Source: Planktothrix tepida PCC 9214 (GTDB lineage Bacteria; Cyanobacteriota; Cyanobacteriia; Cyanobacteriales; Microcoleaceae). Taken from it: a DNA stretch of 64,000 bases. Below the pieces are notes generated by a model. The model searched no databases, was not told where the DNA came from, and saw only the letters and a program-made list of their open reading frames with translations. Location of the stretch: contig NZ_LN889782.1 in assembly GCF_900009145.1 (NCBI RefSeq), positions 1,111,093 through 1,175,092 of the forward strand. Direction: 5' to 3'. Both the position numbers and the translations under genes were made by a program. Positions 59,173-64,000 of the stretch are shown here, piece after piece (the first letter of the stretch is position 1; the number at the start of each line of letters is the position of its first letter).

Positions 59173-60219
59173 GGTTCTTCAGTATCTAGTCTGCAAAAGA
59201 TTTAGTTAAAATGCCAATTCAGTAAACATCTTGATTGAAAGTTTTTGAAATTTCTGAATCCATAAGCCGAACGTTTAATCAGTTTCAGTTTGTTATTAAT
59301 TCCCTCCACTACTCCACTGGTTGTTCTATGATCAAAGTAGGCAATAATTTCATCTAGCCATCGAATCATTGTATGAATGACTGTTCGGGAAATACTTTTG
59401 AGCTTCATCTAACCACCTCCCCAATTCCCATAATCCTCCTAACCAATCATTTGTTTCCTCAAAAATTTGACGGATTTTTTCTTGTGTTCTTCCTTCAAGT
59501 AGGGCTATTAACTTCGACTTTTCTAAATCTACTAGAACTGCACAATAATTTCCTTTTCCTTTAATCAATGCTATTTCATCAATTCCTAATCTTTTTAAAT
59601 CGGTGGGTTTCAACTCGGCTAATTTTGATGATGCGTCTTTTAACATCCTTTCTATTTCTTCTGTTGTGACTAACCCTTTTTTGGCGACACTGTTTATATC
59701 CTTTTCTAAAACTTCTTGTAGGATTCTATCAGCCAATCTTTTTGTATAAGTCCTTCTTTTCCCCACGAAATCTAAATCCTCACTAAACGGCTTTTTACAT
59801 TTCTTACATTTGAACTGTCGTCTATTTATTTCTAAGAATACTGGCGATTCTCCCCAAGGTAAATCTTTAATTATATATCTATGGTTTTGATGTAATTTAT
59901 GACTTTTTTCCCCACAACGAGGACAGATACTTTCCTGATGGATTGGCTCTATCTCTAAAATTATTCCAATCCCTTTATGCTGATGACGTGAGACTACTTT
60001 TACTCCTTCTAGCTCCAGAAGTTCTGTGAGCATTTTAATTTCCCTTGAGGAAGTCATTGTTACTGATTTACCCTGAATTTACCATTTTTCTGATTTTAGT
60101 TAACAACACAGATGGCTTAACTGTCAACCGGAAAAAGCTTTTCAGCTAGGGGTAGATATATTTTTTGTCTTTCTTGATTTTATTAACTATAATTTTAGCA
60201 TACTAGATACTGAAGAACC
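59173..60219 (-). mobile_element. ISL3-family IS, internally deleted
   Basis: Perfect 18-bp terminal inverted repeats GGTTCTTCAGTATCTAGT (59173-59190) and its complement (60202-60219) bound 1047 bp. The similarity continues imperfectly inward for about ten bases. The transposase inside lacks its middle and is frameshifted. Full ISL3 elements are typically near 1.3-1.5 kb. I see no clear 8-bp target duplication (GGGTTTTA on the left, ACTTAAGA on the right). It separates the DJ-1-like gene from the methyltransferase island. Confidence 0.85.
59202..60057 (-). pseudogene. Defective ISL3 transposase
   Basis: The first part (60057 to 59350) has the zinc-finger-like CPRCGEKSHKL and CKKCKKPFSEDLDF, then the DDE domain start (RLGIDEIALIKGKGNYCAVL). 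After EGRTQEKI it jumps directly to IFEETNDWLGGLWELG, omitting about 130 residues normally found in ISL3 proteins, including the second catalytic Asp region (VADRFHVMKQ). A frameshift near 59370-59400 then moves to the frame of RWLDEIIAYFDHRTTSG to SRCLLNWHFN. The product cannot be an active transposase. Confidence 0.85.
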
Positions 60220-61234: not shown

Positions 61235-61804
61235 TTACTGTTCACCTTTTGTAAACCAGACGGCTGTGTAATCAATCAAGTGTAAGTTAAATTGTTCTTG
61301 TCTTGACTGTTCAAAATCATGTAAGGCTTTCTTGCAGCCGTCCCAATACCCATAATCATCTACCTGAATTTTACCATGAGGAACGACCTGATCGTAGAGG
61401 GTATTAAAAATATCCATTGTGGATTCATACCAGTCTCCATCTGCGTGCAAAAAAGCAATATTCCCAATTTTAGACTGATATTGGGGCAAGGTTTGAGCAA
61501 ATAACCCCTTAACAGGAATCACAATATCTTGAATCTCTAATTTTTGACAAATTAATTGGATATTTTCTGCCATTGGTGCTTTTAAAGCGCCCACTCCAGC
61601 CCCAGTAAGGTTGGCGGGTATTCCTTCGTGAATATCAACGGTTGTGGGTTCGGGCATTCCTTCAAAGGTATCAAAGGCATAAAGTAAACGGGGGCGGCGA
61701 CTGTAACGTTTAATCACCCAAGCTAACAACGCACCTGATCCCCCTTTGCAGCTTCCACATTCCACAAAGTTACCCGGAATATCTTCCAAACAAACTTTTT
61801 TCGC
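61235..61804 (-). pseudogene. N-terminally truncated TylF/MycF-type O-methyltransferase
   Basis: The catalytic body is preserved: IPGNFVECGSCKGGSGALLA, LLYAFDTFEGMPEP, FLHADGDWYESTMDIFNTLY and VDDYGYWDGCKKAL with its metal-binding Asp pair. The usual 60-80 N-terminal residues are missing. An ATG at 61789 would give 184 residues and might still be translated. The open frame continues to the in-frame TGA that ends the next methyltransferase fragment upstream. Confidence 0.7.
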
Positions 61805-62287
61805 TCACTTACGCTGTTGTTGTTCGGCTAACTCCGCTACTGCGTCAGGACTATAACCACTGACTAAATTAACGCTTTCAAGCACACCCGCCGATTGCAA
61901 AGAATGAGCAACACTATCATAAATATCAGGTTTGGCTAAGAGCGGATCAATCACGTCTAATTCGACTCCGGCCAACGCCAGATGACAAGCTGACCAACCA
62001 TACCAACAGCCAATTTCTAAGGCTCTTTTACCTCTAAATTTTAGGGCGGTATTATAAAGAATATGGGCTTCATCTCGATTGAGAAATCCCACAGATTTCT
62101 CTCTTTGATCTACATACCAGTTATGGGGAATATCCCGTCTGAGATAGGGCCAATCCGATGCACTGGTATCTTGAACAATCATATTGGGAAAACATTGATC
62201 AGGTTTGATGATTTCCAAACCAGGTGAAACATAATCGCCCTCTGCTAACAAGTCTCTATCAATAAATTCTACGGTTTCTTTATTCAT
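61805..62287 (-). pseudogene. C-terminally truncated class I SAM methyltransferase
   Basis: 160 residues from ATG 62287 (AAAGGA upstream). ALEIGCWYGWSACHLALAG is SAM motif I and LDVIDPLLA follows. It stops at VAELAEQQQRK, where homologues continue with a WSLIFIDGNH-like segment and another 90 or more residues. The stop TGA (61805) lies in the same frame as the TylF fragment. The junction looks like a deletion that removed the end of one gene and the start of the other. Confidence 0.7.
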
Positions 62288-62334
62288 CTTTTTCCTTTCA
62301 TGTTCGGGTTTAAATGACTTAACCAACCTAGTCT

Positions 62335-63402
62335 TTAATAGTAAAAACTGGTAAATTCGTCAATGATTCTAATATAGTTTTTAATCAGGCGACTAAAATC
62401 AAAGTTGTCTTTGACATATTCTACAATTTCTTGACGATACTCTTGATTTTTTTCGATCATTTCCTGAATGGCTTCCGTGACAATTTCCTGATTTTCTGGG
62501 GTCACATTCGTTAGAATGTCATCAGGTAAAACTTTAATAAATTCTTTTTTGTGTAAATTAGCACTCGCTGATTCAGAAATAACCACACATAAGCCTGCTG
62601 CTAAAGCTTCAAGGATAACTAAAGGGGCAACTTCTCCATCACTAATAAGAACTAAACAATTATAATCAGTGAGATGGGTATACACCTGTTGTAAACTCCA
62701 AATTCCTAAATATTGAGTTGTGTTCCCTTCTTGAAAATCAGGATCATCCAAGGGGCCAACAAAATCTAAGGATAACTTTCCCTCTACAATTTCTGCCAAT
62801 AATCTCTGCCGCTTTCTGGGTTGAATCCAACCTAAACAAATGGCTTTATTATTGCCTCTTTCCTTAAAATTAATTTTCTGTGTATCAATACCATTCGGTT
62901 GCATTCTCATAAACCCAGAGTATCCTTTGTTTAGGAAAAACTCTTTTGTTTCATGAGAAGCAGCAATTATACCTGGCGCATCTATATAAGGTTTAAAAGC
63001 TTGTCGAAAGTTTTCCTCCCATTTATTTTCTTTCAACAAATAACCATATTGGCAGGTAAAACAATATTTCTGTTTCAGTTTTTTATTGAATTCACCAACA
63101 AAATCGCAAGCGTGTAAGGAATGAAAAACCAATAAGGTGACTAATTGAGAAATAGTTTACAGTGGATCAAGGTTTCCAGGGTTTAGTTGTGCAAGTTATT
63201 TATTTTTCATTCCTAAATGTACAAAATCAAAATTACTATTGTTGATCTGATCAATTGCCTGATCAACATCTTTCTCATCTATAAAATCAACTTCATATCC
63301 CAGTTCATTTAAAAAAAATTTATACTCGTTCATTAAAGTATAAATAGAATTTGATAAGGGTGGAACCGGAATGTAACCCCAAGCAACAAGAGCAATTCTC
63401 AT
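62335..63402 (-). pseudogene. Glycosyltransferase family 4 gene interrupted by a 96-bp insertion
   Basis: The N-terminal part (63402-63217) begins MRIALVAWGYIPVPPLSNSI and ends in FDFVHL. The C-terminal part (from about 63114) begins HACDFVGEFNKKLKQKYC and contains the GT4 donor-site region SDGEVAPLVILEALAAGLCV. Between them, a 96-bp element plus a duplicated TTA adds two in-frame TAA stops (63196-63198 and 63156-63158) without changing frame. Removing 99 bp restores VHLHACDFVGEF and a 322-residue GT4 enzyme. As it stands, only fragments can be made. Confidence 0.85.
63118..63213. mobile_element. 96-bp MITE-like element with TAA target duplication
   Basis: The ends are inverted: GGAATGAAAAA at 63118-63128 and TTTTTCATTCC at 63203-63213, with weaker pairing further in (CCAATAAGGTG against the complement TAAATAACTTG). 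Identical TAA trinucleotides flank it (63115-63117 and 63214-63216). It splits a glycosyltransferase gene precisely, and excision of one TAA plus the element restores the protein. No coding capacity. I do not recognise a parent IS. Confidence 0.8.
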
Positions 63403-63514
63403 TACAAAATATCCTCTGGAAAAATCCGCAGTGTAAAAGATGTATGATTAATGAATAAATACCATCTTTAGGTGCAATTGATCAAGAAATTGTTACCCCC
63501 AACCCGTGTCAATA

Positions 63515-64000
63515 CTACTGCACGGTCGAATCTAGGGGTAAATCCAGGGGTAAATCCTCGGCAAAATTCAAAGATAATTGCTTGGGAAGCTGATCGACCT
63601 GGAAATACTGATGAAATTTTTTCGTAACTTGTAGCCAATAGGAGCGGGCGTTGGGTTGTTTGCGTTTGTGAACAAATCCCAATTCCACCAATTCCTGAAC
63701 CTGTTGATAGGCTCCTGATCCTCTTAATTCAACTAAATCCGTTTGCGTAATCCCTCCATTCAGGGCGATCGCCGCTAAGGTTCTTAAGGCCCCTACTCCT
63801 AACTCTGGGGCGACTAAGGTGTGCATTAACTCCATATAGGCTTCTCGGAGTTGCAAGGTATATCCAGAGTCGGTTTCTACCACTTCTAAAGCACTATCTC
63901 GATGGGCATAGTCAGACATGAGTTGAATTAATGCTTCTTCAACTTCTTTGCGATCGCACCGGGCTAATTCTGCTAGTCCTCCAATGGAAAGGGGTTGACC
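63515..64000 (-). CDS. scpB: Segregation and condensation protein B (5' end outside window)
   Basis: At least 161 residues. The frame remains open to the right edge. SIGGLAELARCDRKEVEEAL is the first winged-helix region of ScpB, followed by YTLQLREAYMELM, ALRTLAAIALNGGITQTDLVELRG and the second winged helix (LVELGFVHKRKQPNARSYWL). ScpB binds ScpA and SMC in chromosome condensation. The ATG at 63919 is internal, so the start lies beyond 64000. The C-terminus is acidic and short. Confidence 0.93.
   Translation of the reverse strand, partial: GQPLSIGGLAELARCDRKEVEEALIQLMSDYAHRDSALEVVETDSGYTLQLREAYMELMHTLVAPELGVGALRTLAAIALNGGITQTDLVELRGSGAYQQVQELVELGFVHKRKQPNARSYWLQVTKKFHQYFQVDQLPKQLSLNFAEDLPLDLPLDSTVQ

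Follow-up and report, generated by a model that had tools for sequence, protein, structure and literature searches.

The DNA analysed here, a stretch of 64,000 nucleotides from Planktothrix tepida PCC 9214, is referred to as the window. In this window a glycosyltransferase gene is split in two by a segment of 96 bp. The question raised by the locus is what this segment is, and which transposase could have carried it into the gene.

The interrupted glycosyltransferase gene

The gene lies on the reverse strand, where a 62-aa N-terminal piece (63217..63402) is followed by the element and then by a 260-aa C-terminal piece of a group 1 glycosyltransferase (62335..63117; PF00534, PF13692). A contig scan with the 260-aa piece gave nine homologous loci, all in Nostocales-type genomes by title. 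The C-terminal piece is 67–75% identical to these homologues. The N-terminal piece has no Pfam match on its own, and tblastn matches it in all nine loci at 58–74% identity. In every one of the nine the two halves abut without the segment, the N-terminal match ending one base before the C-terminal match, and the seven homologues with a printed frame read ..DFVHLHA.. across the junction. The first-pass annotation had named homologues containing the same segment as the finding that would speak against an insertion, and none of the nine contains it.

The gene is lengthened by 99 bp without loss of frame and gains two stops, as the same annotation had claimed. In the frame of the gene, positions 63115–63216 translate as LGMKNK*LAQLNPGNLDPL*TISQLVTLLVFHSL. 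The TTG at 63132, within the element, could serve as an ORF restart. We infer that the split gene is probably inactive. At E 0.001 the 260-aa piece matches nothing in the other nine genomes of the genus, one of which is only 73% complete, and for this reason no element-free counterpart of the window's own site can be shown within the genus.

A further irregularity is seen on the same strand at 61235–62326, where an ORF at 61805–62326 and a TylF methyltransferase ORF (PF05711) adjoin in frame with one TGA between them. The ORF at 61805–62326 has no Pfam match and is methyltransferase-like by eye. The same two segments of the methyltransferase region lie ~400 bp apart in four of the nine homologous loci (L033–L036). 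It seems that a deletion has fused two broken genes here. This apparent deletion, together with the MITE insertion, suggests the decay of a cluster shared with Nostocales.

Structure of the 96-bp element

The element occupies 63118..63213 on the forward strand and contains no transposase gene. Its termini, GGAATGAAAAA and TTTTTCATTCC, are inverted and perfect over 11 bp, and the inverted repeat extends imperfectly beyond them, with 16/18 and 18/22 end positions in agreement. The left terminal inverted repeat is GGAATGAAAAACCAATAAGGTG (63118..63139, forward strand) and the right one reads GGAATGAAAAATAAATAACTTG on the reverse strand (63192..63213). The element is flanked by two copies of the target-site duplication TAA, the left at 63115..63117 and the right at 63214..63216. 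The length, the coordinates, the 11-bp ends, and the TAA flanks proposed in the first-pass annotation were all exact on recheck. Repeat detection returned 19-nt arms that are 89% complementary, one base of each arm being flank.

When 63110–63220 is folded as single-stranded DNA, the fold has a z-score of -2.75, and 2 of 200 shuffles are equally good. A promoter scan of 63000–63520 gave one promoter-like site, outside the element, against 2.8 by chance. Reading the segment as an RNA element was dropped, since Rfam has no match at gathering score over 62300–64000.

The end sequence is not rare by itself. Allowing one mismatch, the 11-mer occurs four times in the window, against 5.7 expected from shuffling. 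Chance does account for the 11-mer, and it does not account for the family of copies or for the rule that their flanks obey.

Copies in the genome and in relatives

The genome of P. tepida PCC 9214 (6.78 Mb, 191 contigs) contains ten matches to the element, which correspond to 7–10 copies. Three matches are full and identical, one is full at 94%, and six are partial and identical over 72–80 bp. Of the partial matches, three are left parts and three are right parts, and the number of copies behind them could be as low as three. Five of the ten matches lie at contig ends, and the element accounts for some of the assembly breaks in this genome. The first-pass annotation had also named the lack of any second copy, together with no empty site in relatives, as a finding against an insertion, and second copies are present.

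Within the genus, nine of ten genomes match, P. tepida included, and the tenth genome is 73% complete. The number of matches is ten in P. tepida and 0–6 elsewhere. Across the family, 23 of 61 genomes and 3 of 11 genera match. One of the matching genera, like part of the genomes of a second, matches by a 20–30 bp end alone, and long matches outside the genus are confined to one other genus of the family. Among 72,556 plasmid records a single one matches, a P. agardhii plasmid (strain No.66), at 94.8% identity, and the phage collection holds no match to the element. The first-pass annotation called the element new. This holds insofar as no description of it was found among the open-access papers listed for MITEs and Planktothrix, including the available portions of PMC4766695 and PMC3542288. 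It does not hold in the sense of a local novelty, since the element is spread genus-wide and has long matches in one further genus.

Target-site duplication and element-free sites

The flanks were scored at 49 loci, comprising 32 genus matches, the plasmid copy, and 16 long matches outside the genus (of 17; G035:C76, a 74% match, was omitted). Seven copies at contig edges were excluded, which leaves 42 scored with both flanks. Equal 3-bp flanks are present in 28 of these 42 copies, and all 28 have the form TNA (TTA 16, TAA 10, TCA 1, TGA 1). At control offsets of one to five bases, equal flanks occur in 1, 2, 2, 0, and 0 of the 42. The 14 copies without equal flanks include L005, which breaks at an N and is not a true full copy, the truncated L135 and L140, and L139, which is out of register in the ungapped extension; all four were counted as misses. 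Some copies share the same flanks (L018/L021, L001/L011, and L027/L028), so the number of sites is smaller than the number of copies.

A duplication of only the two bases TA was considered on account of copy L001, whose flanks are TTA and TAA. It was rejected, as L011 in G004, at the same site, has TTA on both sides and the 28 copies obey the 3-bp rule. The flank of L001 at 1443–1494 (G000:C61) belongs to a repeat of ~50 bp that is matched dozens of times across the genus, mostly in G004.

Counterpart sites in relatives provide the empty state. For copy L002, five counterparts lack the element, one each in G001, G002, and G007 and two in G009. The counterpart in G007 and one of those in G009 read ..GAATTGC TAA GAGAGG.., with a single TAA where P. 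tepida has TAA-element-TAA, and the other three have TGA at the insertion place. A sixth relative match (G004, L094), which spans only ~100 bp on one side, was set aside. For copy L004, one of the seven relatives compared (G007) aligned through the site, and it carries a single TTA. For L001, the flank matches of relatives end short of the insertion point, with the exception of G004, where the element is present. The search for an empty site proposed in the first-pass annotation therefore succeeded for L002 and L004 and not for the window's own site, whose gene is unmatched in the other nine genomes of the genus.

Based on the repeat family, the TNA flanks, the element-free sites, and the abutting gene halves in the homologues, the 96-bp segment is a MITE-like insertion. 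It is 96 bp long and transposase-less, which falls within the MITE size range of 50–500 bp given in the available text of PMC10969869, and it has terminal inverted repeats, a target-site duplication, many sites, and element-free sites in relatives.

An ISAzo13-family insertion sequence with the same ends

The matches in other genera that consist of an end alone led to a full IS in G022 (L055), which is 1365 bp long and flanked by TTA at each end. Its 410-aa transposase scores 491.9 bits against NF033519 (ISAzo13; cut-off 200 bits) and 353.7 bits against PF07592. The P. tepida genome carries three identical copies of a 1366-bp IS, each scoring 488.4 bits against NF033519, and the encoded protein is 84% identical to the G022 transposase. 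The ends of this IS are GGAATGAAAAAGTAATAACTTG and GGAATGAAAAATCAATAAATGG. One copy has equal TAA/TAA flanks (L068), one has unequal TTG/TTA flanks (L060), and one runs into a contig end (L064). The earlier suggestion to look for an IS with the same 11-bp ends is thus answered within the genome itself. Three more IS ends in this genome stop at N after 81–83 bases and look like collapsed copies.

All four arms of the MITE and of the P. tepida IS have GGAATGAAAAA..AATAA...G in common, and the 11-bp tips are identical. The MITE agrees with the IS ends at 18–20 of 22 positions and at 20–25 of 36. Its left repeat equals either IS end at 18/22 positions, and its right repeat equals one of them at 20/22 and one G022 IS end at 22/22. 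Exact TNAGGAATGAAAAA sites occur 20 times in the genome, and by hand tally these are eleven MITE ends, seven IS ends, and two lone ends (L143, L144). With one mismatch allowed the pattern has 75 sites against 49 for a reversed control, so only the exact ends carry weight.

The similarity does not extend inward. The longest exact match of the MITE interior to the G022 IS is 12 bp (E 0.014), and the P. tepida IS gives nothing better than E 2. Apart from the ends, direct comparison returned short weak matches only, which do not support an origin of the MITE interior from the IS interior. Since the similarity is confined to the ends, the ISAzo13-family IS is the probable mobiliser rather than a shown parent of the MITE. 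In the terms used in the accessible part of PMC10969869, the MITE would be classed nearer type II than type I, because its interior is unmatched in the IS beyond these short stretches.

Among the ten genomes of the genus, full-length copies of the IS are found only in P. tepida, and pieces occur in G002, G004, and G008. The ISAzo13 protein has no match in six of the ten genomes, five of which carry the MITE. An IS-like end is present in G001 (L042). The only genome with a full-length IS is also the richest in MITE matches, which fits a recent spread in the presence of the transposase, although a single genome is an anecdote and not a test.

Which transposase moved the element

The ISL3-family element in the window (59173..60219, reverse strand; PF01610, PF14690) lies 2.9 kb from the MITE, and this proximity is all that recommends it as the mover. 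Its end pair, GGTTCTTCAGTATCTAGT, is unlike the ends of the MITE, and it was rejected as a candidate. ISL3 elements duplicate 8 bp and the MITE has flanks of 3 bp. In addition, the transposase here is broken over two ORFs. Movement by this element is hardly credible, and the first-pass annotation was right to look for another mover: the ISL3 ends differ from those of the MITE, and an ISAzo13-family IS carries the MITE's ends. The ISL3 element itself has 22-nt ends that differ at one position and 8-bp flanks that are unequal.

It is also very improbable that the segment is a passive structured repeat, such as a REP-like palindrome or a small RNA gene, that lies in the gene without any transposon insertion. 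The segment is short and repeated, its ends are palindromic, and its fold beats most shuffles, all of which would suit such a repeat. The TNA flanks, equal in 28 of the 42 copies, and the sites that have a single TNA and no element speak for insertion instead; only precise deletions could reconcile the element-free sites with a passive repeat. The ends are moreover common to an IS, and Rfam is silent over the region. A third possibility leaves insertion in place and changes the mover to an IS5-family element of the IS1031 group, or to another transposase that duplicates TNA, so that the likeness to ISAzo13 ends would be coincidental or reflect an older shared origin. IS1031-group elements duplicate TNA, and an IS5 mover of this type was the first guess from the duplication. 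It is also consistent with the five genomes of the genus that have the MITE and no ISAzo13 protein match. This guess lost ground once an ISAzo13 IS sharing these ends was found. Of the 20 exact TNA-plus-11-bp ends in the P. tepida genome, 18 belong to the MITE or to this IS and the other two are lone; the agreement of the ends reaches 22/22 with one G022 IS end; and the sole genome of the genus with a full-length ISAzo13 IS has the most MITE matches. Such a mover is therefore improbable, if somewhat less so than the other two explanations.

Mobilisation by the ISAzo13-family transposase of the same genome is preferred. The 96-bp segment is very probably a non-autonomous MITE copy that this transposase mobilised, through the shared ends, into a TNA target. 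Mobilisation in trans is usually argued from ends that match and duplication rules that are equal, and from these we infer that the ISAzo13 transposase could act on the MITE in this way, by cutting or copying. The transposase encoded by the 1366-bp IS would recognise the ends shared as GGAATGAAAAA..AATAA...G and would mobilise the MITE, which would then insert at a 3-bp TNA target that is duplicated in the process. At this locus the target would have been a TTA leucine codon of the glycosyltransferase gene, and the in-frame gain of 99 bp with its two stops would have split the gene in two. Under this mechanism, a mini-element that has spread through a cyanobacterial genus has a probable autonomous partner. 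The element also provides a minimal substrate for testing a transposase family that, according to the accessible text of PMC10045372, is related to eukaryotic Zator.

Other MITE-like families with the same kind of end

Other genomes contain MITE-like families whose interiors differ and whose ends are of the same type. They measure 98–99 bp in G016 (L044, L045, L047, L048), 124–126 bp in G030 (L049, L050, L051) and G038 (L054), and 80 bp in G035 (L056). All nine scored loci have equal TNA flanks (L046, L052, L053, and L057 were left out). At L046:2823–2981 (G016:C2), a complete MITE-like unit is followed after 59 bp by another copy of this end.

We lean slightly toward a broader reading, in which this MITE family is the first to be assigned to the ISAzo13/Zator superfamily and several MITE families with different interiors live off one ISAzo13 group within its bacterial family. 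If this is true, the minimal end of the ISAzo13 group (GGAATGAAAAA..AATAA plus a TNA target) could be read from natural variants.

Comparison with known systems

Gene-interrupting MITEs are familiar from cyanobacteria, as described in the available text of PMC3542288 and PMC10969869. The insertion described here is confirmed and largely ordinary in kind, and the part worth keeping is the probable ISAzo13 partner. Among the open-access sources, a single paper mentions both ISAzo13 and MITEs, and its available text draws no connection between them. The table in the accessible part of PMC9366434 lists ISAzo13 for Planktothrix, and the available text of PMC10045372 gives 3-bp target-site duplications for both ISAzo13 and eukaryotic Zator.

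The MITEs of Anabaena sp. 90 (PMC3542288, in the sections available) resemble the element in being short, in having terminal inverted repeats, and in splitting genes, 15 of 147 lying in disrupted ORFs. They were classed as type II, that genome having no similar IS ends, whereas the element described here shares its genome with an IS whose ends match. Nezha, compared by description only, is a cyanobacterial MITE with a proposed IS partner, which is ISNpu3-like in the accessible part of PMC3049150; this partner may or may not be of the same kind as the one proposed here. The ISAzo13-family ISs (NF033519, PF07592) would supply the transposase, the ends, and the 3-bp target duplication. These ISs are full-length and autonomous, whereas the MITE shares only their ends.
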